Shown: positions 1 to 21,678 of the stretch, piece after piece
How the letters are laid out: each line of letters opens with the position of its first letter
Position numbering within the stretch: position 1 is the first letter of the stretch
Assembly (NCBI RefSeq): GCF_005405925.1
Contig: NZ_BJHV01000001.1
Coordinates: forward strand, 10,044,001 to 10,108,000
Reading direction: 5' to 3'
Length of the DNA: 64,000 nt
Origin: Streptomyces antimycoticus
Lineage (GTDB): Bacteria > Actinomycetota > Actinomycetes > Streptomycetales > Streptomycetaceae
Notes under the pieces: model-generated
The model's input: only the letters and a program-made list of their open reading frames with translations
Databases searched by the model: none
Told to the model about the DNA's origin: nothing
Position numbers and translations under genes: made by a program

Positions 1-3000
1 ACGCTCGGCAAGCGCTACCTGCGTGTGCTGCAGGGCATGGTCGACGCCCCGGACGCCCCGCTCGACCGGATCGCCCTGTTGGACGAGGCCGAGGCGCGGT
101 CGGTGGTGTGGGAGTGGAATGACACGGCGCGTGAGGTGCCGGGTCGTCCGGTGGTGGAGCTGTTCGAGGAGCGGGTGGCCCGGACGCCGGATGCGGTGGC
201 CGTGGTGGCCGGCGGGGTGTCCCTGTCCTATGGCGAGCTGGACGCTCGGGCCGATCGTCTCGCGCGGCTGCTGGCCGACCGTGGGGTGCGGCCCGAGGCG
301 TTCGTCGCGGTGGCGTTGCCCAGGTCGGTGGATCTGCTGGTGGCGCTGCTGGCGGTGTGGAAGGCCGGGGCGGCGTACTTGCCGTTGGACACGGAGTACC
401 CGGCCGACCGGCTCGCCTACATGCTCCAGGACGCCATCCCCGAACTCGTCCTGACCACAGGCGAGTTGGTGCCCATGCTGCCGGACGTGGACATCCCACG
501 TGTGCTGCTGGACGCGCCCGAGACCGCCGAGGCGCTTTCCCGGACGGCGGGGGAGCGGCGGATCGCTCCCCTCGCGCTGTCGCATGCGGCGTATGTGATT
601 TATACGTCGGGTTCGACGGGTCGGCCGAAGGGTGTGGTGGTGCCACAGGGGCCGCTGGCGAATTTCGTGGTGGCGATGGCCGAGCGGTTCCGACTCACCG
701 GCGCGGACCGGTTGCTGGCCGTCACCACCGTCGGGTTCGACATCGCGGGCCTGGAGCTGTTCGTACCGCTGCTCAGCGGTGCGGCGGTGGTGGTGGCGGA
801 GCGGGATGTGGTGCGGGATCCGGTGACGCTGTGCGCGCTCGTCACCAACGAGCGGATTTCGGTGATGCAGGCGACCCCCAGCCTGTGGCGGGCGGTGCTG
901 GCCGAGGACGCTTCGGTGCTGGGGGGTGTGCGGGTCCTCGTCGGTGGCGAGGCGCTGCCCGCCGATCTGGCGGTGGCATTGGCCGAGCGGGCCGAGTCGG
1001 TGACGAACATGTACGGCCCCACCGAGACCACGATCTGGTCGACAGCCTGGTCGGTCACCCCGGGCACCGCGCGGGCGCCCCGTATCGGGCGGCCGATCGC
1101 CAATACCCAGGTGTATGTCCTGGACGATGGGCTGCGGCCGGTGCCGGCCGGGGTGCCGGGTGAGCTGTATATCGCGGGCGAGGGTGTGGTCCGTGGCTAT
1201 CACGGACGCTCGGGACTGACCGCTGAACGCTTCGTGGCCGATCCGTTCGACCGCACCGGCGGTGGGCGGATGTATCGCACGGGTGACTTGGCGCGCTGGA
1301 CCGCCGTGGGTGAGCTGGAGTATCTCTCCCGGGTCGATGACCAGGTCAAGCTGCGGGGCTTCCGGATCGAGCTGGGTGAGATCGAGACGGTGCTGGCCGG
1401 GCATGAGCACGTGGCGCAGGCCGCCGTTCTCGTCCGTGAGGACCGGCCCGGCGACAAGCGGCTCGTCGCCTATGCCATCCCCTCCACGGCGGCCGGACCG
1501 GAGCCGCTGGCCCTGCGTGAGCACGTGGCCGCCCAACTGCCCGGCTACATGGTGCCGTCGGCGTTCGTCACGTTGGACGCCTTCCCGCTCACCGCGAACG
1601 GCAAGCTGAACCGCCGTGCGCTGCCCGCGCCCGACTACGGCCCCGACACCGCCACCGGCCGGGCGCCGCGTTCGCCGCGCGAGGAGATCCTGTGCGGTCT
1701 GTTCGCCGAGGTCCTGGGCGTGGAGTCGGTCACGATCGACGACGACTTCTTCCACCTCGGCGGCCACTCGCTCCTGGCGACCAAGCTGGTCAGCCGGATC
1801 CGTACCGTCCTGGACACCGAACTGGCCGTGCGCCGTGTCTTCGAGGCACCCACCGTGGCCGAGCTCGCCACGGGGCTCGACGAGTCCGCCGCGGTACGAG
1901 GCCGGGTGGTGAGCGCGAAGCGGCCCGCCCGAGTGCCGCTGTCCCACGCCCAGCAACGCCTGTGGTTCCTCCAGCACCTGGAGGGGCCGAGCGACGCCTA
2001 CAACATGGTCATCTCCCTCGACCTGACCGGCCCGCTGGACCAGGACGCGCTGCGTCAGGCCCTGGCCGACCTGGTCATACGTCACGAGAGCCTGCGCACG
2101 GTCTTCGCGGACGACTCGGGCGGCGGCGCCTATCAGGTGGTCCTCGCACCGGAACAGGCGCAGGTGCCGCTGACCGTGGAGGAGGTGGCCGACGAGGCGT
2201 CCGTCGACCGGCTGGTGCGTGGCGCCGCCGGGTACGCCTTCGACCTCTCCACCGAGATGCCGATCCGCGCCTCGCTGTTCCGGCTGCCCGCCGTCGCAGG
2301 CTCCGACAGTGCGGAAACCGACCGTTCGGCCCTGCTCCTGCTGACGCATCACATCGCGAGCGACGCCTGGTCGCGCGGTGTCCTGGTGCGGGATCTGACG
2401 GCGGCGTACGCGGCCCGCGCGACGACCGGCCATGCCCCCGTCTGGGAGCCGTTGCCGGTGCAGTACGCGGACTACAGCCTCTGGCAGCGTGACCTCCTCG
2501 GCGACGAGTCCGACTCGGGCAGCGAGATCTCGCGCCAGCTCGACTACTGGACCCGGGCGCTGGAAGGGCTCCCGGAGGAACTGGCCCTGCCCTTCGACCG
2601 GCCGCGGCCGGCGGCCGCCTCCTACCGGGGCGACCGGGTCGGGTTCGAGCTGCCGCCGGGCCTGTACGAGCGGCTGGTGCGGGTCGCCGGTGAGCATCGC
2701 GCGAGTCTGTACATGGTCCTGCAGGCGGCCCTGGCGACCCTGCTGACCCGGCTCGGCGCGGGCAGCGACATCCCCATCGGCACCCCCGTCGCGGGCCGTA
2801 CCGACGACGCGCTGGACGACCTCGTCGGGTTCTTCGTCAACACGCTGGTGCTACGCGCCGACACCTCCGGCAACCCCACCTTCACCGAGCTGGTCGAGCG
2901 TGTCCGGGCGCGGGACCTGGAGGCGTACGCGCATCAGGACCTGCCCTTCGAGCGGCTGGTCGAAGTGGTCAACCCGGAGCGTTCGCTGGCCCGGCACCCG

Positions 3001-6000
3001 CTCTTCCAGACCGTCCTCAACCTGAACAACGCCGCTCGGCCCCTCACCGCGCAGACGGGGCTGACCGTCACCGGGCGACCGCTCGGGGCGCCCTCGGCCA
3101 AGTTCGACCTCTCCTTCGAGATCGCCGAGACGGCCGGGACCGCCGGGGCCGGGCTGGGCTGTGCGCTGGACTTCAGCACGGACCTGTTCGACCGGGCCAC
3201 CGCACAGAGCATCGTCGACCGCTTCGTCCGTGTGCTGGAGCAGGTGGCGGCCGACCCGGCCGCCCGGATCCAGGACCTCCAGATCCTCGACCCGGTCGAG
3301 CGCCGCGAGCTGACCGCACCGCCGCGGCACACCTCCGCCCCCGGCGAGACGATCGTGTCCCGGTTCGAGCGGCAGGTGGCCGCGACTCCGGACGCGACCG
3401 CGGTGACCTACGAGACCACGTCCCTCACCTACTCCGAGGTCAACGCGCGGGCGAACCGGCTGGCCCATCTGCTGCGCGAGCGGGGAGCGGGGCCACAGCG
3501 GTATGTGGCGCTGAGCATGCCCCGCACCGAGGAACTGGTCGTCGCGGTCCTCGGCGTGCTGAAGTCGGGCGCGGCATATGTGCCCATCGACCCGGCCTAC
3601 CCGGCCGACCGCATCGCGTACATGGTCGACGACGCCCGGCCGATCCTCACCGTGACGCCCGATGTGCTCGCCGAATCCGAGCGGTACCAGGCGGGCGACC
3701 CGGATGTGGCACTCTCGCCGCTGGACACCGCGTACGTCATCTACACCTCGGGGTCCACGGGACGGCCCAAGGGCGTGGAGGTGCCGCACGGCAACGCCAT
3801 ACGCCTGATGGACGCGACCGACCACTGGTTCGGCTTCGGCTCCGACGACGTATGGACGCTGTTCCACTCCTACGCCTTCGACTTCTCCGTCTGGGAACTG
3901 TGGGGACCGCTGCTGCACGGCGGACGCCTGGTCGTCGTCTCCTACGAGACCAGCCGGACCCCGGAGCGGTTCCTCACCCTGCTGGCGGATGAGCGGGTCA
4001 CCGTGCTCAACCAGACACCGTCGGCGTTCTACCAGCTCATGGCGGCCGACCGGGACAATCCCGAGACCGCAGCACGGCTCCGCCTGCGCCATGTCGTCTT
4101 CGGCGGTGAGGCGCTCGAACTGGGCCGGCTGGCCGACTGGTACGCCCGGCACCCCGATGACGCCCCGTCCCTCGTGAACATGTACGGCATCACGGAAACC
4201 ACCGTGCACGTCACGCATGTCGCGCTCGACGAGGCCGTCGTCGCGGCCTCGTCCGGCTCGGTGATCGGCGAACCGATCCCGGATCTGGGTGTGTATGTGC
4301 TGGACGAGAGGCTCCGGCCGGTGCCGAGGGGCGTCGTCGGGGAGCTGTACGTCGTCGGTGCCGGTCTGGCCCGCGGCTATCTCGGCCGGCCCGGGCTGAC
4401 CGCCGAGCGCTTCGTGGCCAACCCGTTCGGCGAGGGCCGCATGTACCGCACCGGGGACACCGGACGCCGACTGGCCGACGGGCGCCTGGAGTACCACGGC
4501 CGCGTCGACGACCAGGTCAAGCTGCGGGGCTTCCGCATCGAGCTCGGCGAGATCGAGGCGGCGCTCGAGGCGCACCCCGCGGTCTCGCAGGCCGCGGTGA
4601 TCCTGCGCGAGGACCGGCCCGGCGACAAACGGCTGGTGGCCTATGCCGTGCCGACCGCCGGCGCCGACCCGGCTCCGGGGCACGACGCGCTGCGCGCCCA
4701 CCTCGCCACCGCCCTGCCCGAGCACATGGTGCCGTCGGCCGTGGTCGTCCTTGACGCGCTTCCGCTCACCCTGAACGGGAAGCTCGACCGGCGGGCCCTG
4801 CCCGCGCCCGTGTACGGCGGGACTCCGGAGGCCGACCGGCGGGGCCCGCGCACCGAGCGGGAGAAGACGCTGTGCGGGCTGTTCGCCGAGGTGCTGGGGC
4901 TGGACGGGGTCGGCATCGACGACGGCTTCTTCGACCTCGGCGGCGACAGCATCATGTCCATCCAGCTCGTCAGCCGCGCCCGGCGGGCCGGACTCGAACT
5001 CGCGGTGCGCGACGTCTTCGAACACCGCACGGTCGCCGCGCTCGCCGACGTCGCCACGGAGACCGTCCGGGTGGCCGCGGAGGAGCCGGGAGCGGACGTC
5101 GGCGACGTACCGCTGACCCCGATCATGCGCTGGTTCCTCGAACGCGGCGGCCCGGCCGACCAGTTCAACCAGTCGCGGCTCGTCCAGGTGCCCGTGGCCC
5201 TCCGCCACGAGCAGCTGCGGTCCGCGGTGCAGTCGGTGCTCGACCACCACGGCGCCCTGCGGGCCCGGCTCACCGCCGCTCCCGAACGCCGGCTGGAGAT
5301 CCGTGAACCGGGCGCGGTCGACGCCGCCTCCCTGGTCCGCCGGGTGGCCGCCGCCGGGCTCGACGAGCCGGCCCAGCGGGACCTGGTGCGGCGGGAGACC
5401 GAAGCCGCGCGGGAGCGTCTCGACCTGGACGCGGGGCGGCTCGTCCAGGTGGTCTGGTTCGACCGCGGCGCGGACACTCCGGGCCTGCTGCTCCTCCTCA
5501 TCCACCACCTGGTGGTCGACGGGGTGTCCTGGCGCATCCTGGTACCCGACCTGGCGGAGGCGTACCGCGCCGTGAGCGCCGGGCGGGAGCCGGAACTCCA
5601 GCCCGTGGGCACCTCGCTGCGCCGCTGGGCGCAGCGCCTCACGGAGGCGGCGGTCCGGCCCGCGCGGGCGGCGGAGGCCGCCTGGTGGCAGGAGGTGCTG
5701 CGGCCCGGGGACCCGCTCCTGGGCAAACGGGCACTGGACCCGGCCCGGGACACGTACGGGAGCGCGGCGCATCTGACGGTCACACTGCCGGTCGCGGTCA
5801 CCGAGAAGCTGCTCACCCGTGTGCCTTCGGTGTTCACCGCCGAGGTCAACGACGTGCTGCTGACGGCGTTCGCGCTGGCCTGGGCGCGCTGGCGCGGCGG
5901 CCGGGACGCCTGGAGCCCGGGCGCGGCCGGGACGCTCCTCGACCTGGAGGGCCACGGGCGCGAGGAGGACATCGTGGGCGCCGTGGACCTGTCCCGCACC

Positions 6001-6603
6001 GTGGGTTGGTTCACCAGCCTGTATCCCGTACGGATCGATCCCGGTGCGGTGGATCTCACCGACGCCTTCGCGGGCGGCCCGGCCGCGGGCGAGGCCGTCA
6101 AACGGATCAAGGAGCAGCTGAGGGCCGTGCCCGACAAGGGCATCGGCTACGGCCTGGCCCGGCACCTGAACCCGGGCACCGCACCGGGGTTCACCGGCCT
6201 GCCCGAGCCGCGGGTGGCGTTCAACTACCTCGGGCGCTTCCAGGTCGCGGACGCCGAGGAGGCGGGCAGCGCCACGGTCCCGGACTGGACCGTGCTCGCC
6301 AGCGCCGCCGGCATCGGCGGCACCGACCCCAGGGTGCCGCTCGCGCACCCCCTGGAGCTCAACGCCCGTACCGACGACGGGCCGCGCGGACCCGAACTGG
6401 CCGCCACCTGGACCTGGGCCGAGGGCATCCTCGACCGGACCGAGGTCGGCGCCTTGGCAGACCTGTGGTTCCAGGCCCTGACGGCCCTCACCGAGCACGC
6501 GGAGCGCCCCGACGCGGGCGGGCTCACCGTCTCGGACGTTTCCCTGAGCCTGCTGAGCCAGGACGAGATCGAGTTGCTGGAAGACGACTGGAGGACCATG
6601 TGA
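1..6603 (+). CDS. Nonribosomal peptide synthetase, 5' partial: (C/E end)-A(Gly)-T-C-A(Thr)-T-E
   Basis: The frame is open from base 1, so the gene begins upstream. Domain order: tail of a condensation or epimerization domain (to about base 90); A domain about 150-1640 with a [11 protein letters not shown] loop; carrier domain with GGHSLL near 1760; C domain about 1930-3290; A domain about 3350-4810; carrier with GGDSIM near 4940; epimerization domain about 5100-6480 with HHLVVDG. Pocket residues at the ten Stachelhaus positions read DILQLGMIWK (first A, glycine type) and DFWNVGMVHK (second A, threonine type). An E domain acting on L-Thr gives D-allo-Thr. The C domain carries HHIASDA, with Ala replacing the Gly of HHxxxDG. 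The TGA stop shares its last base with the ATG of the next NRPS gene. Specificities are my alignment by eye. The family call is certain. Confidence 0.97.
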
Positions 6604-9600
6604 TGGCGACGCAGTCCGGACTGCAGGACATCCTGCCGCTGGCCCCGCTGCAGGAAGGCTTGCTCTTCCACAGCGTGTACGACGAGGCGGCGCCGGATGT
6701 CTATGTCGTGCAGGACACCATGGACCTGGAGGGCGACCTCGACCCCGAGGCCCTGCGCGCCGCGTGCCGCACCCTGCTGCGGCGCCACGCCAACCTGCGC
6801 GCGGGCTTCCGCTACGCGGGCCTGCGGCGCCCCGTCCAGTTCATTCCGCACGAGGTCCCCCTGCCCTGGGAGGAGCTCGACCTCGCCGCGCTGACCGAGG
6901 ACGAGCGCACCGCGGCGGCGGACCGGGTGCTGGAGGCGGACCGGCGACGCCGCTTCGACCTCAACAAGCCGCCGCTGATGCGGTTCACCCTGCTGCGGCT
7001 CGGCGACCGCCGGCACCGTTTCGTCCTGACCAACCACCACATCCTGCTGGACGGCTGGTCACGCCCGATGCTGCTGCGTGAACTCCTCGCGCTGTACGCG
7101 GCCCGCGGCGACGACAGCGGGCTGCCACGGGTCCGGCCCTTCCGGGACTATCTGCACTGGCTCGCCGCCCAGGACCGGGACGCCGCGGTGGCCGCGTGGC
7201 GCGAGGCGCTGGCCGGAATCGACGGCCCCACCCTCGTCGCGCCCCGGAGCGGCGACCGGCCCGCCGTCGTACCGGGACGCCTGGACACCGAGCTTGAACC
7301 CGCCGTGTACGAAGCGCTCTCCGCCCTGGCCCGGGAGCGTGCGCTGACCCTCAACTCACTGGTGCAGGGCGCCTGGGCGGTCGTCCTCGGCGGGCTGACC
7401 GGGCGGGACGACGTGGTGTTCGGCGCCACCGTCTCCGGACGGCCGCCCGAGCTCGCCGGGGTCGAGACGATGGTGGGCCTGTTCATCAACACCCTGCCCG
7501 TCCGGGTACGGCTGCGTGCCGACGAGCCGCTGGTGGACCTGGTGCGCCGGGTCCAGGACGAGCAGACCCGGCTCCAGGCCCACCAGCAGATCGACCTCGC
7601 CGAGGTGCGGCGGCTCGCCGGAGCCGGTGAACTCTTCGACACCACCATGGTGTTCGAGAACTACCCCGTGGACCTCACGGCCGGGAACGACAAGCCCGGC
7701 GGGACGAGCGGCCTGACCGTCGCCGGCGCCCGCAACCGCGACGCCGCGCACTATCCGCTGGCGCTCGTCGCGGTCGGCCGTGGCGGCCTGCTGCGGCTGC
7801 GCCTCGACCACCAGCCCGACCTGATCCCCGAGCCATCGGCCCGCGCCGTCCTGGACCGCGTGGTCCGCGTCCTCACCTCGGTCGCCACCGACCCGCTGCG
7901 GCCCGTCGGCCGGCTCGAGCTGCTCTCCGGGGAGGAACACCGCACCGTCCTCGAACTCGGCCACGGCGCGGACACCGACATCCCGGATCTCAGCCTGCCG
8001 GAGGCGTTCCGCGCCCAGGCCGCCCGCACCCCGCACGCCACCGCCGTCCGCACCGGCGCCGACGCGCTCGACTACGCAGCGCTCGACGCCCGCTCCGACG
8101 CGCTGGCACGCCGCCTGACCCGGCTCGCAGTGGTGTCGGAAACCCCGGTGGCGCTGCTCATGGAGCGCTCGGCGGACGTCATCGTGTCCGCGCTGGGCAT
8201 CCTCAAGGCGGGTGGTGCGTACGTCCCGCTGCGGCAGCGTGACCCGGCCGACCGGCTGCGTCTGCTCACCGGCCTCGCCGGTGTCTCCCTGGTGCTGACC
8301 GACCGGGCGAACGCCGACCGCGCCGCGGAACTGGGACCCCCCGTGGTCGTCGTGGACGACGGCACGGGGACGGAGCCCGATCCCGTGCCCGGACAGCCAT
8401 TGCCGCGCGTCCACCCCGGCCAGATCGCCTACATCAGCCACACCTCCGGCTCCACCGGAACACCCAAGGGCGTCGCCGCCACCCACCGCCATGTGCTCGA
8501 ACTCGCCCATGACCGCTCGTTCGCGAACGGCGCCCACACCCGGATCCTGGTCCACTCGCCGCACGCCTTCGACGCCTCCACGTACGAGATGTGGGTGCCG
8601 CTGCTGACCGGCGGCACCGCCGTCGTCGCCCCGCCCGGCGACCTGGACGCCGAGCGGCTCGGCAAGCTGCTCGCCGAGCACGAGATCACCGGGCTCTTCC
8701 TGACCACCGGTCTCTTCCAGCTCGTCGCCGACGAGGCGCCCGAACACTTCGCGGGCCTCCACGAGGTGTGGACCGGCGGCGAGGCGGTCCCCGCCGCGTC
8801 CATCCGCCGGGTGATGCGCGCCTGCCCCGACACCACCGTCATCGATGTGTACGGGCCCACCGAGACGACCACGTTCGCGGTGCGCCACCGGCTTCCCCGG
8901 GGACCGGAGGTCCCGGCCTCCGTCCCGATCGGCAGCCCCCTGGACAACACCCGGCTGATGGTCCTCGACACCGGGCTGCGCCCCGTGCCACCGGGCACGG
9001 CGGGCGAGCTGCACATCGCCGGCGCGGGCCTGGCCCGTGGCTACTGGCGGCGCCCCGGAACCACCGCGGAACGCTTCGTCGCCGATCCCTACGGCCCGCC
9101 GGGCACCCGCATGTACCGCACCGGCGACCTGGTGCGCTGGAATGCCGAAGGCGTCCTCGAATACGTCGGGCGCGCGGACGAGCAGGTGAAGCTGCGCGGC
9201 TTCCGCATCGAACTCGGTGAGATCGAGGCGCTGCTGGGCAGCCACCCCGACGTCGCCCAGACCGTCGTCACCGTGCAGGAGCCGCGCCCCGGTGACAAGC
9301 GCCTGGTCGCCCACCTCGTCGCCGAGCGCGGCACCACCCCGTCCCCGGAGGACCTGCGGGCACACCTGGCCGCCGAACTCCCCGACTACATGGTGCCCGC
9401 CGCGTTCGTCGTCCTGGACGCGCTGCCGCTGACCGGCAACGGCAAGGTGGACCGCAAGGCCCTGCCACTGCCCGACACCGGTCCCGCCACCGGGGCGCGC
9501 CGTGCCCCGCGCAGCCCCCAGGAGGAGATCCTGTGCGGCCTCTTCGCGGAGGTCCTCGGCCTGCCGTCGGTCGGCATCGACGACAACTTCTTCGACGCCG

Positions 9601-10907
9601 GGGGACACTCGCTGCTCGCCACCCGGCTCGCCGGGCGCATCCGTTCGGTGCTCGGTGCCGAGCTGGCGGTGCGCCAGCTGTTCGACACGCCCACGGTGGC
9701 CGGGCTCGCCCGCGCCCTCGACACGGCCGGATCGGCCCGGCCGGCGCTGAGGCCCGCCGAGCCGCGCCCCGACCGCGTCCCGGCCTCCTTCGCCCAGCGC
9801 CGGCTGTGGTTCCTGCACCGCTTCGAGGGTCCCTCGCCGACGTACAACATCCCCTTCGCCCTGAGGCTCACCGGCGATCTGGACCGCGCGGCGCTGCGGG
9901 ACGCGCTCGTGGACGTCGCGGAGCGCCATGAGTCGCTGCGCACGGTCTTCGCCGAGGATGCCGAAGGGCCCTACCAGGCCGTGCTGCCCGGCCCGGAGGC
10001 CCGGACCGCGCTGACCGTCGTCCCCGATGTGGCGCGAGATCGCCTGGAGCGGGAGATCGCCGCCGCCGTCGGGCACGCCTTCGACCTGTCCGGAGAACTC
10101 CCGCTGCGCGTCTGGCTGTTCGAGACCGGAGAGCGGGAGCATGTGCTGCTGCTCCTGGTCCACCACATCGCGGGCGACGGCTGGTCGGTGCCGCTGCTCG
10201 CCCGCGACATCGTCGCCGCCTACGCCGCGCGACGCGTCGGCACCGCCCCCGCCTGGCAGCCGCTGCCCGCCCAGTACGCCGACTACAGCCTGTGGCAGCA
10301 CGAGGTGCTCGGCTCGGAGGACGACGACGAGAGCCTGATCGCCCGGCAACTCGCCTACTGGAAGCAGGCCCTGGCCGGACTGCCGGACGAACTCACACTG
10401 CCCGCCGACCGGCCGCGCCCCGCGACCTCCGGCCATCGCGGCGAACGCATCCCCTACCAGGTGCCCGGACCGCTGTACGAGCAGGTCCGCGCGCTGGCCC
10501 GGGCCACCAAGGCCAGCCCGTTCATGGTGGTCCAGGCCGCGGTGGCCGCGCTGCTCACCCGGCTCGGGGCGGGCACCGACATCCCGCTGGGCACCCCGGT
10601 GGCCGGCCGCACCGACGACGCCCTCGAGGATCTCGTCGGCTTCTTCGTCAACACACTGGTGCTGCGCACCGACACCTCGGGCAACCCCACCTTCCGTGAG
10701 CTGATCGCCCGCGTCCGGGACACCGACCTGGCGGCCTACGCCCATCAGGACCTGCCCTTCGAACGGCTGGTGGAGGCGCTCAACCCCAGGCGCTCGCAGT
10801 CCCGGCACCCGGTGTTCCAGACCATGCTCACCTTCAACAACACCGAGCAGCGGCAGACGCCGTCGGACACGGCGGCCCCGAGGACGGCGTGGGGGCACCG
10901 GGCCTGA
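6603..10907 (+). CDS. NRPS terminal subunit, first part: C-A-T-C(start); frame broken near 10876-10895
   Basis: Starts at ATG 6603, overlapping the stop of the preceding NRPS. The N-terminus ([14 protein letters not shown]) is typical of a C domain that accepts a D-residue from an upstream E module. Order: C about 6630-7900 with HHILLDG; A about 7950-9480; carrier with GGHSLL near 9605; a second C domain from about 9770 with HHIAGDG near 10160. The A-domain pocket reads DAYFWGVTFK. Its GVTFK end resembles Ile/Val pockets, but I cannot assign it firmly. This frame ends with an unrelated tail inside the second C domain, and the protein clearly continues one frame over (10889-13807). One extra C in the CCCC at 10876-10879 gives a natural junction. 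I treat 6603-13807 as one gene. Confidence 0.93.
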
Positions 10908-13807
10908 CCGTCGAGCGCGTGGCCTCGGACACCGGTACGGCCAAATTCGACCTGCTGCTGTCCTTCGCCGAACGGCACGCCCCCGACGGCAGCGTGGACG
11001 GGCTGAGCGCGGGCCTCGAATTCAGCACCGACCTCTTCGAGCGCGACACGGCGGAGCGGATCGTCGCTCGGCTCCTGCGGCTGCTGACGGCCATGACCGC
11101 CAATCCGCAGGCGCGACTCGGTGAGGTGCCGCTCCTCGACGAGGGCGAACGGGCCGCGGTGCTGAGCGGCGGTCGCGGCGCGGCGCGCCCCGCGCGCGAC
11201 GCCTCGCTGTCCGAGCGGTTCGAGACGGCCGTCGCCCGCAACCCGCACGGCGTGGCCGTGGAGACCGCGGCCGGCGCGGTCGGCTACCCGGAACTCAACA
11301 CGCGTGCCAACCGCCTCGCACGGCTGCTCATCGACCGCGGAGTGGGCCCCGAGGACCTGGTCGCGGTCGCCATGCCCCGGTCGGCCGAGCTGGTCACCGC
11401 CCTCATGGCGGTCCTCAAGGCCGGTGCCGGGTATCTGCCCGTCGACCCCGAGTACCCGGCGGCCCGCATCGCGTTCATGCTCGAAGACGCCCGCCCCGCC
11501 CTCGTGCTGACCACCCGCGAACTGGCCGCGGCGCTTCCGGAAGCTCTCGCCGGCCGCACGATCGCCACCGACGACCCGAAGGCCGGCGAGGCGCTCGCCG
11601 GGTATTCCGCGACCGACGTCACCGACGACGAGCGCGCCAGGCCGCTCCACCCCGCCCACCCGGCGTACACCATCTACACCTCGGGCTCCACCGGACGCCC
11701 CAAGGGCGTGGTGATGCCCGCGGGCGCCCTCGCCAACCTGCTGGACTGGCACCAGGCGCAGCTGCCGGGCGAACCGGGCACCCGGGTGGCGCAGTTCACC
11801 GCGGTCAGCTTCGACGTCTCCGTCCAGGAGATCCTCTCCGCGCTGCTGCACGGCAAGACCCTCGTGGTCTGCCCCGAGGATGTCCGCCGCGACCCGGCCG
11901 GCCTGGCCCGGTGGCTGCACGACGCGGGCATCAAGGAGCTGTACGCCCCTAACCTGGTCATCGACGCGGTGTGCGAGGCCGCCACCGCCCAGGGTCTGGA
12001 GCTGCCGGACCTCACCGACCTGGTACAGGCCGGTGAGGCGCTCACCCCGCACGGCGCCATCCGCACGTTCTGCGCCGACCGCCCGGGGGTACGGCTGCAC
12101 AACCACTACGGGCCCGCCGAGACCCACGTGGTGACGGCCTGCCCGCTCCCGGCGGACACCGACGCGTGGACGCCCGGCCCCGCCGCCATCGGGCGGCCCG
12201 TCGACAACACCGCCGTGCGGCTGCTCGACCCCTGGCTGAACCCGGTGCCGCCGGGTGTCCCCGGTGAGCTGTACATCACCGGCGCCGGCCTGGCCCGCGG
12301 CTACATCGCCCGGCCCGACCGCACCGCGGAGCGGTTCGTCGCCGATCCCTACGGTCCGCCGGGCGCCCGGATGTACCGCACCGGCGACCTGGCCCGCCTC
12401 ACCCGCGACGGGCAGCTGACGTACTTGGGGCGCACCGACACCCAGGTCAAGATCCGCGGGTTCCGCATCGAACCGGGTGAGATCGGGGCGGTGCTCACCA
12501 CCGCCCCGGAGGTGGCGCGGGCGGCCGTGGTCGTGCGGGAGGACCGGCCGGGGGACCGGCGACTTGTCGCCTACGTGGTCGCGGCGCACGGCGCCGAGCC
12601 CGGACCGCGCCGGGTGCGCGAGCACGCCGCCCGGCACCTGCCCGATCACATGGTGCCCGCCGCGTTCGTCACCCTGGACGCGCTGCCGCTGACGCCCAAC
12701 GGCAAGCTCGACCGGGCCGCGCTGCCGGCGCCCGAGTACCGGGGCGATACGGCCTCGGGCCGGCCGAGGACGCCCGAGGAGCGCGCGCTGTGCGCCCTGT
12801 TCTCCGAGGTCCTGGGCGTGGCGGAGGTCGGAGCCGACGACGAGTTCTTCGACCTCGGCGGCCACTCCTTCCTCGCCGCCCGGCTGGTCGGCCGGATCCG
12901 CGACGAGATGGGCGGCGACCTGCCGGTGCGCGCGGTCTTCGACGCCCCGTCACCGGCGGCGCTCGCCCGCCTGCTGACGGGCGAGGCGGCTGTGGAGGGC
13001 GACTCGACGGGGACGCTGCTGCCCCTGCGCGCCCGCGGTTCGGCCGCCCCGCTGTTCTTCCTGCACCCGGGAGGCGGCTTCAGCTGGTGCTACTCGGGAC
13101 TCGTCCGCCATCTCGGCGCCGATGTGCCGGTCTATGGCGTCCAGGCCCGCGGCCTCGACGGCACCGGACCGCTCCCGGCGTCCATGGACGAGATGGTCGA
13201 GGACTATCTCGCGCGGATCCGCTCCGTGCAGCCCCACGGCCCCTACCGGCTCGCCGGCTGGTCCTTCGGCGGGCTGACCGCGCAGGCGCTGGCCGTCCGG
13301 ATGCGAAAGGAGGGCGAGGAGGTCGGGATGCTCGCGGTGCTCGACTCCTACCCGCCGGGGGAGCACAGCGACCACTCGGAGCCGGTGGAGCACGAAGTCG
13401 TCGCGAACAACCTGCGGGCCATGGGATTCACCTTCGACATGGCCGAACTCATAGCAGACCAGGAGCGGGTTCTGCTGCGCTTCCGGGAATTCCTGCAAGG
13501 GGGAAATCACCCCATGGCCCACCTCGACCACCTTGAGGCCCAGGACGTGCTGGCCCTCAAGGACGTCTACGTGAACAATGTCCGGATCATGCGGTCCTAT
13601 GTGCCCCAGTTCTTCGACGGGGACATGCTTTTCATCTCCGCGGAGCGCAAACCCGTCGGCCGGGAAACCCTCTTGGATGTCAACTTGTGGCAACCACTGA
13701 CAGGCGGTTCGATCGAGATATGCCCCATAGACTCGAACCACGGAGATCTGATGACCGACGCCCGTCACGCGGCGCGTATCGGACGATTTCTCGCCGACCG
13801 GCTGTGA
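10889..13807 (+). CDS. NRPS terminal subunit, second part: C(end)-A(Pro)-T-TE
   Basis: This continues the subunit that starts at 6603. The GTG at 10889 only opens the frame in the middle of a C domain, so it is not a credible start. Order: rest of C to about 11130; A domain about 11180-12720 with [11 protein letters not shown]; carrier with GGHSFL near 12860; type I thioesterase about 13020-13800. The A pocket reads DVQYVAHVVK, a proline-type code. The thioesterase shows GWSFGG around its nucleophile serine near 13260, a VLDSYPP aspartate region and an NHGDLM histidine near the end, so it can cyclise or hydrolyse the finished peptide. The chain order here is Gly, D-allo-Thr, aliphatic-like, Pro, release. 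The strand then continues into mbtH 57 bases later. Confidence 0.93.
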
Positions 13808-15128: not shown

Positions 15129-17393
15129 CTACCGCCGCGGGTGGCCGGGCGACGGTGCCTGGTCCGTCCGGGGCACGGGGGACTGTGCGTACGGGGCGGG
15201 CAGGCCCGTCGGCGCACCGGTCCCGCCCTCGGCCGGGGCCGATACGGCGGACGTCTCCCGACCGGTCCCGGACGTGCCGCCGGGCCACCAGTTCCACCGG
15301 CCGAGCGCGGTCATCAGCGCCGGCAGCACAAAGATCCGGATGACCACGGCGTCCAGCATGATCGCCGCCGCGAGTCCCACGCCCAGCTGCTTGAACTCGA
15401 CCGCGTTGAGCGTGCCGAAGATCGAGAACACCGCCACCATGACGATCGCGGCACTGGTCACGACACCCGCCGAGCGAACGATGCCCTCACGCACCGAGTC
15501 CCGCACGGACGCGCCCGCCACCGCCATCTCCCGGATCCGGCTGACCACGAACACGTGGTAGTCCATGGACAGTCCGAAGAGCACCACGAACAGGAAGAGC
15601 GGAAGCCAGGACACCACCGTGCCCGAGCTGTCGAAGTCGAGCAGACCCTCCGCCCAGGTGTGCTGGAAGACCGCCACCAGGACACCGAACGAGGCGGCCG
15701 CGGAGAGCAGGTTCAGCAGCACCGCCGACAGCGCCACGGCCAGAGAGCGAAAGATCACCGCCATGGTGCCGAAGGTCAGCAGCAGCACGAAGCCCACCAC
15801 CCAGGGCATGCGCTCCTCCAGATGGTCCGTGAAGTCGATGCCCTGGGCCACCGCGCCGCCGACGCCGCTCTCGGCGTCCGGGACCTCGTCCAGCGCCTGG
15901 GGCAGCCACCCGCGCAGCACCTTCAGCGACTCGGTGGCCTTGGGGTTCTTCGGCGGATACGGCGTGCCCACCTCGACGGTGTGCACCCGGTGGTCCCCGG
16001 ACTCGCGGATCACCGGCTTCTGGTCGTGGGCGAAGAGGCTGTTGCCCTCGGTGCGGTCGATCAGCCCCCGCAGCGCGGCCTTGACCTGGCCGGCCTCGTC
16101 GGCGGGGGCCCGTACCGCCACCTTGTGCACGGTGCCCTCGCTCGGGAAGGCGTCGGTGAGCCGGTCGGTCGCCTGCACGACCGGGATGTCCCGTGACAGA
16201 TCGTCCTGGCCGGGCTGCTTGAGCTTCATGTCCAGGGCGGGCAGGGCGAGCAGCAGCAGTGCGCCGATGGACACCACGAGCGTGAGGGCCGGCTTGAGCA
16301 GCGCCGGGCGCAGCAGCACCGGCCACACCCGCGATTCGCCGGAGCGCATCGTCAGCCGCCACAGGAACGGCACCCGGGGACGGTCCACCCAACGGCCCAG
16401 CTTGGCGAGGAGGGCGGGCAGCACGGTCACCGAGCCGAGGACCGCGACCGCCACGACGATGATGGAACCGGTGGCCAGGGAGGCGAAGGTGGCCTCCTGG
16501 GCCAGGTAGAGCCCGGCCATCGCCACGATCACGGTGGTGCCGGACACCACGACCGTATGCCCCGACGTCTCCGCGGCGATCTCGATGGCGTCGAGGTGGG
16601 ACTTGCCCTTACGGCGCTCCTCCCGCTCCCGCTTGAGGTAGAAGAGCGAGTAGTCGACGCCGACGGCCATGCCCATGAGCAGGATGACATTGCTCACCGC
16701 GCTGGTCTCCGGCAGCACATGCGAGGCCAGGGACGACAGCCCCATCGCGGTGACCACACAGGACAGGGCGAGCAGCACGGGCACTCCGGCGGCGATGATC
16801 GCGCCGAAGACCACCAGCAGGATCAACAGGGTCAGCGGAACACTGATCAGCTCGGCCCGCCTGAAGTCCTTGCCGATGGTGTCCGACATGCCCTTCGCCG
16901 TCGAACCGGTGCCCACCTGCTCGATCTTGAGCCCGTCGTGGGTCCGGTCGGCCTCGGCGCTCACATCGAGCAGCGGGCGGACCCGGTTGATCGCGTCGTC
17001 CTCGTCACCGTTCATCGTCACCGGTACGAGCAGGGCCTTGCCGTTCGGCGCGGGAACCGGCGCACCGACGCTGCGTACCTCGGGCAGCGCCTTCATCCGG
17101 CCGGTGATGTCCCTGGCCGCCCGCTGCGCCGCCTGCTGGTTCAGCTTCCCGCCCGAGTCGGCGGTGATGAGCACGTTCTCCTCGGGCCTCTTGGTGAAGT
17201 CCCCGGAAGAAGCGATCTTGCCCGCCCGGCCCGACTCCCGGACCCCGGACTCCTCGGAGTCGAGCTTGTTGGTGCCGGCGGCGCCGCCGAGGAAGAGGCA
17301 CAGGGCGACGAACACGACCCACAGTCCGAGCGCGGACCACGGATGTGTGGCACTCCATCGGGCAACCCGTAACGTCGCCGGTTTCTTTCGCAC
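15129..17393 (-). CDS. MMPL family RND-type membrane transporter
   Basis: A 754-residue integral membrane protein of the MMPL/ActII-3 family, the Streptomyces type that exports lipids and antibiotics. One membrane segment lies near the N-terminus (HPWSALGLWVVFVALCLF), followed by an external domain. A helix block (residues about 180-370) contains GVDYSLFYLKREREER. A second external domain is followed by a second block with FGLSMDYHVFVVSRIREM. The paired GVDYSLF and GLSMDYHVF helices carry the proton-relay aspartates of the family. The start is GTG at 17393, preceded on its strand by GGGAGGA. Convergent to the hydrolase and divergent from the cyclodeaminase, it most likely exports the peptide product. 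An alternative is lipid export unrelated to the cluster. Confidence 0.93.
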   Translation of the reverse strand: MRKKPATLRVARWSATHPWSALGLWVVFVALCLFLGGAAGTNKLDSEESGVRESGRAGKIASSGDFTKRPEENVLITADSGGKLNQQAAQRAARDITGRMKALPEVRSVGAPVPAPNGKALLVPVTMNGDEDDAINRVRPLLDVSAEADRTHDGLKIEQVGTGSTAKGMSDTIGKDFRRAELISVPLTLLILLVVFGAIIAAGVPVLLALSCVVTAMGLSSLASHVLPETSAVSNVILLMGMAVGVDYSLFYLKREREERRKGKSHLDAIEIAAETSGHTVVVSGTTVIVAMAGLYLAQEATFASLATGSIIVVAVAVLGSVTVLPALLAKLGRWVDRPRVPFLWRLTMRSGESRVWPVLLRPALLKPALTLVVSIGALLLLALPALDMKLKQPGQDDLSRDIPVVQATDRLTDAFPSEGTVHKVAVRAPADEAGQVKAALRGLIDRTEGNSLFAHDQKPVIRESGDHRVHTVEVGTPYPPKNPKATESLKVLRGWLPQALDEVPDAESGVGGAVAQGIDFTDHLEERMPWVVGFVLLLTFGTMAVIFRSLAVALSAVLLNLLSAAASFGVLVAVFQHTWAEGLLDFDSSGTVVSWLPLFLFVVLFGLSMDYHVFVVSRIREMAVAGASVRDSVREGIVRSAGVVTSAAIVMVAVFSIFGTLNAVEFKQLGVGLAAAIMLDAVVIRIFVLPALMTALGRWNWWPGGTSGTGRETSAVSAPAEGGTGAPTGLPAPYAQSPVPRTDQAPSPGHPRR

Positions 17394-17509: not shown

Positions 17510-17563
17510 GTTTCCCGCAACTGTCACCCTGCGGTTCTCCGCAGGGTGACAGTTGCGGGAAAC
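17510..17563. promoter_or_regulatory. 25-bp-arm perfect inverted repeat between divergent genes
   Basis: Perfect 25-base arms at 17510-17534 and 17539-17563 with a 4-base loop (TTCT). It lies in the 305-base gap between the divergent MMPL transporter and cyclodeaminase genes, about 115 bases before the transporter start and 135 before the cyclodeaminase start. There is no T-tract. It could be an operator, a leader-RNA hairpin or a block between divergent transcripts. Confidence 0.6.
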
Positions 17564-17698
17564 CGTACTCGCCCAGGCGAAAGCTTGACCGGAGGAAACT
17601 GCAGCCATTAGTTTCATATTCCGGTTCGTCCTTTCCGATGGAGTAAGAATTCCATTGGCAGGTAAATGCCGCACCGTGATGCGAATCAAGGGGAAACA

Positions 17699-18727
17699 AT
17701 GGAAACCACGGTCCTCACTCGGCAGCATGTTGCCAAGATCGTCCAGGGAAAGGGATTAGACCTTTTCATGGACCGGATGATCGACCGGCTCGACGAGGCG
17801 TTCCGTGCGGAAAGCAGATGGGGCATCACCCCGGCGCGGGACGGATTCCTGCGCGGTCCTCAGAACACGGCCGTCCTCGAATGGATGCCGCACCACCAGC
17901 CCGGCGACTCGATCACCATCAAGACCGTGGCGTACACCCCCACGAATCCGTCCACCCATCAGCTGCCCACCATCATCGGCACGATGGCCCGGTACGACGA
18001 CGTGACCGGCCGTCTGCTGGCCGTCGGTGACGGGATCCTGCCCACCGCCGTCCGCACCGGCGCCGCGTCCGCCATCGCGAGCCGTCTGCTCGCCCACCCC
18101 GACAGCCGGGTCCTCGGCCTGGTGGGCGCCGGCGCCCAGGCGGTGACCCAGGCCCATGCCCTGAGCCGGGTCTTCCCGCTGGACCGGATCCTCGTCCACG
18201 ACATCGAGCCCGCCCACGCCGAGTCCTTCGCCGAGCGCGTGGAATTCCTCGGTATCGACGTGGAGGTGGCATCCGTCGCGGAGATCGAGGCGGCATCGGA
18301 CATCATCTGCACCGTCACCTCGGTCGGGGTCGGAGACGGCCCGGTCCTCCACGGCGAGCGGCTGCGCCCGCACATCCACATCAACGCGATAGGCGCCGAC
18401 CTGATCGGCAAGTACGAGGTGCCGCTGTCCGTGCTGAAGTCCGCCTTCGTCACCCCCGACCACCAGGGGCAGGCGCTGCGCGAGGGTGAGTGCCAGCAGC
18501 TCGACCAGAGCGAGCTGGGCCCGGAGCTGCCCGTCCTGTGCGCCGACCCGGCGCTCGCCGAGGGGCGGCGGGAGCAGCTGACCGTCTTCGACTCGACCGG
18601 ATTCGCCCTGGAGGATCACATCGCCTTCGACGTGCTCCTCGAACTCGCCGAGGAGGCCGGTATCGGCGACCGGGTGCAGCTGGAACACCTGCCGGAGGAC
18701 GCGCTCAACCCGTACTCCTTCCAGTGA
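17699..18727 (+). CDS. Ornithine/lysine cyclodeaminase family protein
   Basis: A 342-residue member of the ornithine cyclodeaminase/mu-crystallin family, which uses bound NAD to turn ornithine into proline or lysine into pipecolate. The nucleotide-binding glycine motif LVGAGAQAVTQA lies near residues 138-150, followed by VHDIEP. The acidic substrate-site region is near HINAIGADLIGKYE. I chose ATG 17699, which follows AAGGGG, over the upstream ATG at 17666. The nearby NRPS has a Pro pocket, and related lipopeptides also contain D-pipecolate made by a lysine cyclodeaminase. A pipecolate supply role is therefore plausible. The sequence alone does not separate lysine from ornithine specificity. 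Confidence 0.88.
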   Translation: METTVLTRQHVAKIVQGKGLDLFMDRMIDRLDEAFRAESRWGITPARDGFLRGPQNTAVLEWMPHHQPGDSITIKTVAYTPTNPSTHQLPTIIGTMARYDDVTGRLLAVGDGILPTAVRTGAASAIASRLLAHPDSRVLGLVGAGAQAVTQAHALSRVFPLDRILVHDIEPAHAESFAERVEFLGIDVEVASVAEIEAASDIICTVTSVGVGDGPVLHGERLRPHIHINAIGADLIGKYEVPLSVLKSAFVTPDHQGQALREGECQQLDQSELGPELPVLCADPALAEGRREQLTVFDSTGFALEDHIAFDVLLELAEEAGIGDRVQLEHLPEDALNPYSFQ

Positions 18728-18863: not shown

Positions 18864-19508
18864 TCAGGACTCCAGATACCGCAGGACCGCCAGGATCCGC
18901 CGGCTGTAGCCGGCGGTGTGCGACAGGTCGAGCTTGTCGAAAATCGTGTTGAGGTTCTTCTCCACCGAGCTCAGCGAGATATGCAGTTTCTGCGCGATGG
19001 CCGTGTTGGTGTGGCCCTGCGCCAGCGTCTCCAGAACACTGCGCTCGCGCGGAGTGAGCCGGGCGAGCGGGTCACCGTGTGTGGTGCGGATGACCAACTG
19101 CCGCACGACTTCCGGGTCGATGGCCGCGCCACCCGCGTGGATCCGCTCCAGCGCGTCCAGGAACTCCTCGACCTGGGCGACGCGGTCCTTCAGGAGATAC
19201 CCGACCCGCTCCGCGTTGGACGCCAGGAGTTGAGCCGCGTAGTTGCGCTCCACGTGCTGCGACAGCACGAGCAGGCTTATCTGGGGCCAGCGCTTACGGA
19301 TCTCCAGCGCGGCCCGCAGCCCGTCGTCGGTGTGCGTCGGCGGCATCCGGATGTCGACGACGACCATGTCGGGCATCCGCTCCTCGACCTCCTTCATGAG
19401 GGACACCGCGTCACCCACCGCGGCGACGACCTCATGGCCCTCCTCGACCAGCAGACGTACCAGTCCTTCCCGTAGCAAGGTCGAGTCCTCGGCGAGGATC
19501 ACGCGCAT
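18864..19508 (-). CDS. Two-component response regulator, NarL/LuxR type
   Basis: A 214-residue response regulator. The receiver domain has the acidic pair AED near residues 6-8, phosphoacceptor Asp52 in VVVDIRMPP and a lysine in LLKDRV. A LuxR-type helix-turn-helix occupies about residues 148-205 (LTPRERSVLETLAQG, HISLSSVEKNLNTIFDKL). The start ATG at 19508 lies inside the end of the upstream kinase gene, overlapping by 10 bases, so the pair should be co-translated. It is the last gene of the dedA-kinase-regulator operon. It probably controls envelope-stress or lipopeptide-immunity genes. Target sites are not evident. Confidence 0.95.
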   Translation of the reverse strand: MRVILAEDSTLLREGLVRLLVEEGHEVVAAVGDAVSLMKEVEERMPDMVVVDIRMPPTHTDDGLRAALEIRKRWPQISLLVLSQHVERNYAAQLLASNAERVGYLLKDRVAQVEEFLDALERIHAGGAAIDPEVVRQLVIRTTHGDPLARLTPRERSVLETLAQGHTNTAIAQKLHISLSSVEKNLNTIFDKLDLSHTAGYSRRILAVLRYLES

Positions 19509-20815
19509 GGAAGCTCCGCGGTAATGGTCGTGGGTCCCCCGAGGGGGCTGTCGATGTGCAGCAGACCGTCGAGCGCGCTCACCCGGCTGCGCAGCCCGGT
19601 GAGGCCGCTGCCCGATGGATCGGCTCCGCCGGTGCCATTGTCCTCGACCCGGACCACCAGCACCGCTCCGTGCAGCGCGAGTCGGATGGTGATGGCCGTG
19701 GCGCCGGAGTGCTTGGCGGCATTGGTCACGCACTCCGACACCACGAAGTACGCGGCGGTCTCCACCGTCTGTGGCAGCACACGGTCGACCTCGAAGTCCA
19801 TGCGGATGGGAAGGGAGCACCGCTCGGAGACCCCGCTGAGTGCTTCCTTCAGCCCCAGGCTGTCCAGGGCGGAGGGATAGATCCGCCAGGTCGCCTCCCG
19901 GAGCTCGGTGATGACCTCCTGGGACTCCTGGTGGGCCTGGTGGAGCAGGGCGTCCACCTGCTCGGGGTTGCGGCCGCGGCTGCGGCGCGCCCGGCCGAGC
20001 AGCATGGCGAGTGCCACCAGGCGCTGCTGGATGCCGTCGTGGAGATCGCGCTCGATGCGGCGGCGCTCGGCGTCGACGGCCTGGAGGACCGCGGCCCGGC
20101 TGGTGGCCAGCTCGTCGATGCGCTGCCGCAGCAACTCCCGCTCCGACGGCCCGAAGCACTCACGGGCCAGCCGGGCGTCCAGCACCGCGAGAGAGTAGAT
20201 GCCCTGCACGTCCAGGAACAGCAGCACACCGCCGAGCAGTGCCTGGGTGAGGAGTTCCTGGAGGTCGAGGCGGCCCTGGAGCAGCCGCATGGCCAGCACC
20301 GCGGCGAGGATGACACCGAACCCCAGCAGACCCACGACGATGGTGCACAGCATCCCCGTGTAGCTGCGGATCGCCAGATAGCGCAGGACCTTCTGGTCGG
20401 ACGACTTGTAGTGCTCGGGGAAACGATCGCCGAAGAAGACGAAGCGGCGCGCCCGGTCCAGCCCCGCGAGCCGACGGGCCCCGGAGGCGAGCGCGGCCAG
20501 GGCGCCGGGCCGGGTGCGCGGCCATAACAGGAAAGGGGCCATGGCCGTGCCGACGATCAGCAAGTAGAGAAATCCGAGCATGGCCGTGCAACAGCCGAGG
20601 AGTGCTCCCGGAATCTTGCGCGGCCACGAGGATTCCGCCGCCCCCCTGCCGCCGTCGTTCTGACCGGGCGAGCCGAGAAACAGGTGATGGGTGGCGAAAT
20701 TCGGCAAATCCCCCTGCACGGGGGCCAAGCGTAGCCCGGCCGCACAGCCCGGGCAAGATCGCCCGGGCTGTGGCGCGAGCAGAGCGGTGGGGCCGGGAGA
20801 CGCGTCGTGGCTCAT
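19499..20815 (-). CDS. Sensor histidine kinase (HisKA_3 type)
   Basis: A 438-residue membrane sensor kinase. The N-terminus has a CPGC pair (residues 21-24), then a hydrophobic stretch about 71-97, a cytoplasmic stretch to 150, and two more hydrophobic segments about 152-177 and 188-212. The dimerization/phosphoacceptor helix has ERRRIERDLHDGIQQRL with His259. The ATPase domain shows ECVTNAAKHSG and VEDNGTGG. The start ATG (20815) overlaps the dedA stop as ATGA. There is almost no extracytoplasmic loop, so it is likely an intramembrane-sensing kinase that detects a membrane state or its DedA partner. It phosphorylates the adjacent LuxR-type regulator. Confidence 0.93.
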   Translation of the reverse strand: MSHDASPGPTALLAPQPGRSCPGCAAGLRLAPVQGDLPNFATHHLFLGSPGQNDGGRGAAESSWPRKIPGALLGCCTAMLGFLYLLIVGTAMAPFLLWPRTRPGALAALASGARRLAGLDRARRFVFFGDRFPEHYKSSDQKVLRYLAIRSYTGMLCTIVVGLLGFGVILAAVLAMRLLQGRLDLQELLTQALLGGVLLFLDVQGIYSLAVLDARLARECFGPSERELLRQRIDELATSRAAVLQAVDAERRRIERDLHDGIQQRLVALAMLLGRARRSRGRNPEQVDALLHQAHQESQEVITELREATWRIYPSALDSLGLKEALSGVSERCSLPIRMDFEVDRVLPQTVETAAYFVVSECVTNAAKHSGATAITIRLALHGAVLVVRVEDNGTGGADPSGSGLTGLRSRVSALDGLLHIDSPLGGPTTITAELPCA

Positions 20816-21468
20816 GAAGCGGGGCGCTGCCTGCCGCGGCCTCGGAAGCGCACGACCACGTAGACCACGATGGCCAGCACAACCGCGACCAGGACCACCT
20901 TGGAGAGGACACCGACGTAGGTCTCCACCTCGTCCCACTGATCGCCCAGCCAGTAGCCGGCCATCACCAGCACCGTGTTCCAGACCAGGCTGCCCAGCGT
21001 GGTCAGCAGGGCGAAGACCGGCAGCGGCATGCGCTCGACCCCGGCCGGAATGGAGATGAGGCTCCGGAAGATCGGCACCATGCGGCCGATGAAGACCGCC
21101 TTGGTGCCGTGCCGCTCGAACCACTGCTCCGTACGATCCAGGTCGGACGCCTTCACCAGCGGCAGCTTCGCCCAGACGGCGTGCATGCGCCGACGGCCGA
21201 CGAGCATGCCGATCCAGTACAGCACCAGCGCGCCCACCACCGAACCGAGCGTGGTCCAGAACAGCGCCGAGGCCAGGCTGATCACACCCTGCCCGGCCGC
21301 GAACCCGGTCAGGGGCAGGATCACCTCGCTGGGCAGCGGCGGGAAGAGATTCTCCAGCGCGATGGCCAGACCGGCTCCCGGCCCGCCCATCGCGTCCACG
21401 AGGTCCGCGGCCCAGCCGGCGATGCCGTCCGAGGGCTCCTGGGGCAGCGCCAGGGTCATCAAGTGCAT
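20812..21468 (-). CDS. DedA family membrane protein
   Basis: A 218-residue DedA (SNARE-associated/VTT) protein. Family signatures are present: ENLFPPLPSEVILPLTGF near residues 39-56, with its conserved acidic residues, and GRMVPIFRSLISIPAG near 128-143, with its two conserved arginines. It has about four to five membrane segments and a basic tail. DedA proteins are known to include undecaprenyl-phosphate translocases (UptA) that recycle the lipid carrier. It is the first gene of a coupled operon with the kinase and response regulator, next to an NRPS cluster predicted to make an undecaprenyl-phosphate binder. Immunity or carrier-homeostasis is the inferred role. GGAG lies 8 bases before ATG 21468. 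The 210 bases upstream should hold the operon promoter. Confidence 0.93.
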   Translation of the reverse strand: MHLMTLALPQEPSDGIAGWAADLVDAMGGPGAGLAIALENLFPPLPSEVILPLTGFAAGQGVISLASALFWTTLGSVVGALVLYWIGMLVGRRRMHAVWAKLPLVKASDLDRTEQWFERHGTKAVFIGRMVPIFRSLISIPAGVERMPLPVFALLTTLGSLVWNTVLVMAGYWLGDQWDEVETYVGVLSKVVLVAVVLAIVVYVVVRFRGRGRQRPAS

Positions 21469-21678
21469 GCGTGGTCTCCAACATGGCGGTCAGGCGCCGG
21501 AGCGCTTCGCGGCCCCGACGCCTGTCAATCTAGAAACCGCCGACCAGCGAAGACATGAGGATTGCCGCCCAACCCGGTGGTGTTCTCCGCAGCGCTCGCC
21601 CTGCGGGAAACCGCAGATCAGCCGGGTGCTGGGGCACTCGGGCACACCACGCGCGGCACCCGCCCCTGCCGGGCCGGC

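Follow-up and report, generated by a model that had tools for sequence, protein, structure and literature searches.

A DedA-linked two-component system of Streptomyces, its putative operator, and its association with laspartomycin-type lipopeptide clusters

Introduction

Membrane-sensing two-component systems of the LiaRS/VraSR and DesKR types combine a HisKA_3 kinase that lacks an extracytoplasmic domain with a NarL-type response regulator. Translocases of undecaprenyl phosphate (Und-P) were first identified in 2022 (PMC9876793; reviewed in PMC12826051), and the passages of these two papers cited here present DedA and DUF368 proteins as candidates found through amphomycin-type drugs. The DedA protein UptA of Bacillus subtilis binds C55-P, and its residues R112, R118, and W146 affect that binding (PMC11474028, relevant passages). 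In Staphylococcus aureus, one of two dedA deletions caused a moderate, acid-dependent sensitivity to amphomycin and the other caused none, according to the relevant part of PMC9876793. DedA as an immunity factor in biosynthetic clusters has already been proposed (PMC10127716, section 9). For daptomycin-family clusters, the resistance passage of a review states that besides ABC transporters no potential resistance mechanism is encoded, and the same review names S. malaysiensis DSM 4137 among the genomes with a predicted glycinocin cluster (PMC9113097, in part). Among the matches listed from open-licence PMC papers, we recognised neither a paper about a two-component system coupled to DedA in Streptomyces nor a coupled sensor, DNA site, short MMPL regulon, and one-sided laspartomycin-type association.

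Results

Three overlapping genes encode DedA, a kinase, and a response regulator

The window, the whole stretch of 64,000 nucleotides of Streptomyces antimycoticus DNA analysed here, corresponds to C1:10044001-10108000 in a genome of 11.17 Mb. An initial sequence-only reading had described a dedA-kinase-regulator set with overlapping genes, and the coordinates and Pfam matches confirm it:

20812 to 21468, minus strand: dedA, a VTT/DedA membrane protein of 218 aa (Pfam VTT)
19499 to 20815, minus strand: sensor histidine kinase of 438 aa (Pfam HisKA_3 and HATPase_c)
18864 to 19508, minus strand: NarL/LuxR-type response regulator of 214 aa (Pfam Response_reg and GerE)

The dedA and kinase genes overlap by 4 bases (the common ATGA), and the kinase and regulator genes overlap by 10 bases. 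The VTT domain (PF09335) of the dedA product scores 81.9 bits against a Pfam cut-off of 33.9, which places the protein in this family, and the Pfam domains of the other two products are those of a NarL-type two-component system.

From its sequence, the dedA product is likely a UptA-like Und-P translocase. Its best named NCBIfam matches are both UptA models (NF052604 and NF052605), and R129, R135, and W163 are invariant in a 28-row alignment (including two fragments from further DedA proteins of this genome), with the spacing of R112, R118, and W146 in UptA, a match made by spacing only since UptA itself is absent from the alignment. Both points argue against the alternative that DedA, instead of being a protective Und-P flippase, acts on another lipid or serves the product as a route of entry or as its target, but the two other DedA fragments share the same arginine and tryptophan spacing. 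That alternative, which we consider highly improbable, draws on DedA-assisted antibiotic uptake, the subject of PMC12119084 as far as the parts cited go, and on the scores of 137 bits (cut-off 250) and 124 bits (cut-off 300) against the UptA equivalogs, which leave the protein outside both. Compared with E32 and H119 of UptA, again by spacing only, E48 is nearly invariant with its spacing off by one residue, a serine and not a histidine stands beside R135, and Q64 is unplaced. A search by sequence for a solved DedA relative found none and returned one unrelated 35-residue chain (E 0.8).

Three membrane helices are predicted for the kinase, which lacks an extracytoplasmic domain and has a DesK/NarL-type catalytic part. 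H259 is invariant across a 29-row alignment; DesK is the closest solved kinase by sequence. It had been read as having almost no external loop, and this agrees with an AlphaFold2 model in which long helices span residues 64-91, 140-179, and 185-221 and only about five residues separate the last two (mean pLDDT 76.6, pTM 0.43). Residues 1-59 are unstructured in the model (pLDDT below 50), and several relatives align only from about residue 60 onward. The Pfam domain "Putative sensor" (PF13796) has no match in the window kinase or in that of locus L035, a match under the cut-off in L032 (E 0.014), and a score of 30.5 bits against a cut-off of 28.2 in L033.

The neighbouring cluster is of the laspartomycin/glycinocin type

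Next to the trio lie genes of a lipopeptide cluster and of a transporter:

1 to 13807, plus strand: C-terminal part of a laspartomycin-type NRPS
15129 to 17393, minus strand: MMPL-family transporter, the second predicted target of the regulator (Pfam, operator matrix)
17666 to 18727, plus strand: ornithine-cyclodeaminase-family enzyme, between the regulator and MMPL genes in cluster genomes

On the upstream side, the cluster genes continue past the window for about 39 kb. Encoded there are an ABC ATPase, an A-T-TE protein, an ABC-2 membrane protein, an AMP-binding enzyme, and an acyl-CoA dehydrogenase, together with PLP-enzyme and lyase genes. We take the AMP-binding enzyme as the fatty-acyl ligase, assume a pipecolate role for the cyclodeaminase, and suppose that the PLP-enzyme and lyase genes perhaps serve diaminopropionate. 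The adenylation codes, extracted with a motif script that missed some domains, are presumably to be read as Asp, Gly, Asp, Gly, Asp, Gly, and a Val/Ile-like residue. In the window, the terminal NRPS gene is split into two frames near position 10880, where three close relatives (L007, L008, and L028) have one extra base; the gene is therefore either frame-broken or affected by an assembly error there.

The cluster is of the laspartomycin/glycinocin type because its gene set and codes (FAAL, ACAD, and trans A-T-TE; Asp-Gly-Asp-Gly, with some adenylation domains missed) fit the architecture given in the relevant part of PMC9113097. The predicted product class had been said to bind Und-P, and this holds in so far as the part of PMC12826051 cited lists laspartomycin C among the antibiotics that sequester Und-P.

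The trio is widespread, and laspartomycin-type clusters carry it consistently

Among 76 loci fetched by their kinases, 31 have a DedA gene adjoining the kinase within about 1.5 kb, in three gene orders (25 colinear, 4 divergent, and 2 convergent); DedA neighbours were sought by tblastn with the window dedA at E 1e-8, and none was found in the other 45 loci, which hold more distant kinases. Of 392 Streptomyces genomes, 114 match the kinase at E 1e-75 or better, comprising 58 of the colinear class (at least 58% identity), two fragments (G048 and G253, excluded from the 58), and 54 at about 45-52% identity. The colinear-class kinase has dedA directly upstream in 56 of the 58; the exceptions are G145, split between contigs, and G404, a 55% complete genome with no dedA match. 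Because dedA stands beside the kinase in these 31 of 76 loci and 56 of 58 genomes, the pairing exceeds chance. The more distant class was represented by 20 of its 54 genomes, in whose fetched loci dedA adjoins the kinase in divergent orientation. Locus L160 (G084 C1, 290055 bases) holds a divergent dedA/kinase pair with operator, and G228 carries the dedA-kinase pair twice with identical scores (C1:21759-23573 and C1:8636519-8638333), near both chromosome ends, apparently within terminal repeats and with one TAG in the kinase frame.

With a criterion of at least 73% identity for the laspartomycin-type ligase, eight of the 392 genomes are ligase-positive (G000, G413, G179, G389, G290, G078, G046, and G249; G078 is taken, on its coordinates, as the same genome as locus L031). 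All eight genomes have the colinear trio, contiguous with the cyclodeaminase and MMPL genes (Fisher p 1.5e-7, uncorrected for kinship). The NRPS is on the trio's contig in seven of them, the contig of G290 stopping in or just after MMPL, and the ligase lies about 47-48 kb from the trio in the four where one contig holds both. A terminal NRPS at 70% identity or more was found in 7 of 29 genomes reached through fetched loci, and the same seven show the NRPS beside the trio.

The sequence-only reading had proposed a dedicated self-resistance module. Its presence in every cluster of this type among the 392 genomes stands, its restriction to cluster genomes does not: 50 of the 58 trio-class genomes lack a laspartomycin-type ligase. 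The trio lies in mid-chromosome in several cluster-free genomes (e.g., G036, G343, G299, and G384), and the three genes are found, again in this order, on a plasmid of S. xanthii (NZ_CP061282.1) that has no annotated NRPS within 9 kb of them. Most genes that flank cluster-free trios are not shared. Wide occurrence away from such clusters, which the reading itself had named as counting against it, is thus largely what we found, and we reject dedicated immunity as stated. Because of the 50 of 58 genomes without the ligase, we regard the trio as a general module captured by clusters.

The same 50 genomes, together with the mid-chromosomal and plasmid copies, would also suit a general envelope-stress module that happens to lie at the edge of the cluster and does not specifically protect the producer. 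We consider this unlikely. The trio, cyclodeaminase, and MMPL genes stay contiguous in all eight cluster genomes; the trio is not enriched in genomes whose ligases are all less similar, at 45-57% identity (3 of 45, p 0.12); and S. viridosporus NRRL 2414 (L010, G004) retains trio and MMPL though its best terminal-NRPS match has 50% identity.

In S. viridosporus (L010 12142-15159 and 17756-21265), the cyclodeaminase is present in short pieces only, and a polyketide synthase gene downstream takes the place of the lipopeptide NRPS.

The cluster-borne trios (14 rows, including the relict L010) do not form one clade, and a single origin is rejected (AU p 1.2e-50), yet all fall inside one 32-row group with support 93/88; therefore, capture, exchange, or loss occurred more than once. 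These trees omit L013, L014, and L033, which have a different dedA arrangement, and the tree for the AU test also omits the near duplicates L087 and L089.

An operator-like repeat is concentrated at dedA and MMPL

The inverted repeat TGCGGTTTTCCGCA is common to the dedA upstream regions, as are a further, imperfect copy of it and a TAGnnT box. In the window, the putative sites are:

21598 to 21616, minus strand: putative dedA-operon operator, exact core 21602 to 21615; second imperfect copy at 21577 to 21595
21527 to 21532, minus strand: dedA-operon -10-like box TAGATT (nearly all aligned loci show TAGnnT)
17526 to 17568, no strand assigned: same putative operator in the cyclodeaminase/MMPL intergenic region, with a palindrome at 17526 to 17547 (25.3 bits, plus strand)
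17550 to 17568, minus strand: weaker operator copy in the same intergenic region (13.1 bits)

Exact TGCGGTTTYCCGCA is a single-copy sequence upstream of dedA in seven of ten trio genomes, is found a second time in the cyclodeaminase/MMPL intergenic region of an eighth (G078), and is absent from G389 and G081; the reversed control gave one match in the ten genomes. A matrix was trained on dedA promoters of cluster-free loci only, where 32 of 36 promoters scored above the threshold and four below it, and merging identical sites left 17 unique ones; six of these cluster-free genomes do have an MMPL gene, and L015 was counted as cluster-free from its 10-kb flanks only. Over 104 kb of the genome studied here, the dedA promoter (26.1 bits) and the cyclodeaminase/MMPL region (25.3 bits) are the top two matches, followed by 16.1 bits inside NRPS coding sequence and 14.4 bits inside the ligase gene.

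The dedA and MMPL regions are the two best distinct regions in all 14 cluster or relict loci (12 genomes, counting L011/L154 and L012/L153 as one genome each), the MMPL site being weak (12.7-14.5 bits) in L010, L011/L154, and L020. Control loci totalling 793,166 bases, of which L045 itself has a DedA gene nearby, gave no match of at least 17 bits, seven of at least 14.4, and 16 of at least 12. In the divergent class, all 20 loci fetched have the repeat (at least 14.8 bits) in the dedA/kinase intergenic region, and in 19 the repeat is the locus's best match. It is also found between dedA and kinase in L013, L014, and Rhodococcus L036 (14.6-15.0 bits) and upstream of dedA in Microtetraspora L032 (14.3 bits); a matrix scan of loci L033 and L035 gave no match above 14 bits.

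The distribution of sites bears on whether the system is a cluster-situated regulator that chiefly switches biosynthesis on. Two observations fit this reading: the cyclodeaminase shares the operator-bearing intergenic region, and a 14.4-bit match lies about 100 bases into the annotated fatty-acyl ligase gene (L083 11414-11432). We nevertheless think it quite improbable, as the NRPS, ligase, and ABC genes have no site above 16.1 bits in the 104 kb, on which ground a pathway-specific activator is rejected, and six cluster-free genomes have the site at MMPL with no cyclodeaminase relative in the stretches fetched.

A short predicted regulon

MMPL relatives (at least 74% identity) are present in 15 of 43 genomes searched, namely 42 of the 58 trio-class genomes plus G004; 27 of the 43 gave no MMPL match at E 1e-200, and G122 gave one at 50% identity. 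The 15 are the eight cluster genomes and the relict G004, four cluster-free genomes in which MMPL directly follows the trio (G033, G191, G278, and G219), and two in which it lies apart from the trio (on a different contig in G334 and 5.5 Mb distant in G297). In those four, tblastn found no cyclodeaminase near the trio. A site of at least 12.7 bits lies upstream of MMPL in all 15, including the two distant from the trio; six of these are weak (12.7-15.4 bits), in a range where the control loci give 16 matches of at least 12 bits per 793 kb.

In 22 genomes, exact TGCGGNNNNCCGCAGGGT has 25 matches at 17 distinct sites, of which ten are at dedA, three at MMPL, and four elsewhere; eight of the genomes have no match, and the reversed control gave four matches. 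With one mismatch allowed, 19 of 53 matches in ten genomes are at dedA or MMPL, and the remaining 34 show no excess over the 35 of the reversed control. Some of the leftovers recur. In all three loci inspected, AGCGGTTTCCCGCA falls within a conserved open frame, and in L189, L191, and L203, at 1501 (G033, G336, and G044), TGCGGTTTCCCGGA precedes a small conserved open frame by about 50 bases, where it scores about 12.5 bits with the second half-site incomplete and no tRNA; in L188 its setting is different. TGCGGTTTCCCGGA upstream of the small gene is possibly a third target, or a chance match within a conserved promoter. With no excess over the control beyond dedA and MMPL, the predicted regulon comprises these two, perhaps with a third target.

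Discussion

We regard it as rather probable that the trio is an autoregulated lipid-carrier stress regulon, common in Streptomyces, that laspartomycin-type clusters have captured for self-protection. The three gene orders, the repeat in 20 of 20 divergent loci, the two top-scoring places of the matrix, the 15 of 15 MMPL sites, and the eight of eight clusters support this reading. Counted against it are the 50 of 58 genomes without the ligase, the UptA score of 137 against 250 bits, the single moderate effect in S. aureus in the cited part of PMC9876793, the failure of cluster-borne trios to form one clade, the weak MMPL sites, the 14.4-bit match in the ligase gene, and the recurrent 12.5-bit match.

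Mechanistically, the membrane-embedded kinase would sense a disturbed Und-P pool or the state of DedA, and its activity would be altered when the carrier is trapped outside or DedA is short of substrate. The regulator would then bind the TGCGGNNNNCCGCA repeat and raise expression of dedA, and of the MMPL transporter where present. With more DedA, the carrier may get back to the inner leaflet more quickly than the lipopeptide can trap it outside, and laspartomycin-type clusters would have taken over this regulon as self-protection. More tentatively, the two-component system may be devoted to Und-P as such: the kinase would read carrier shortage or leaflet imbalance in the membrane, perhaps via DedA, and the regulon would be essentially a flippase plus an MMPL transporter with a presumed lipid cargo, a self-contained homeostasis loop that clusters captured. 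We consider this version possible, if doubtful.

If the stress-regulon reading is true, a sensor wired to an Und-P translocase, whose predicted targets are very few and whose DNA site is defined, would offer a direct handle on how bacteria monitor the carrier pool and a marker for carrier-trapping antibiotics. It would also supply a candidate self-resistance regulon for clusters described, in the cited part of PMC9113097, as having ABC transporters only. What we did not recognise in the literature, and regard as new here, is the sensing system tied to DedA, its putative DNA site, the short predicted regulon with MMPL, and the one-sided cluster association.

Compared with UptA and the COG0586 DedA translocases, the window protein has the VTT domain, the arginines conserved by spacing, and best NCBIfam matches to UptA; unlike UptA, it falls under the equivalog cut-off, and its gene overlaps, and is apparently controlled by, its own two-component system. 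Like the LiaRS/VraSR and DesKR types, this system joins a HisKA_3 kinase without an extracytoplasmic domain to a NarL-type regulator, but its predicted targets are dedA and MMPL, and Pfam does not recognise the sensor part of the window kinase. The locus shares its cluster family with the daptomycin-type ABC resistance described in part in PMC9113097, the ABC genes here lying at the other end, and in contrast to that description its dedA regulon is a further resistance candidate. As with the DedA genes treated in PMC10127716, dedA is found inside a lipopeptide cluster; whereas section 9 of that paper describes neither a sensor nor an operator, the module here has a predicted form of both and appears to be a general one that the cluster has only captured.
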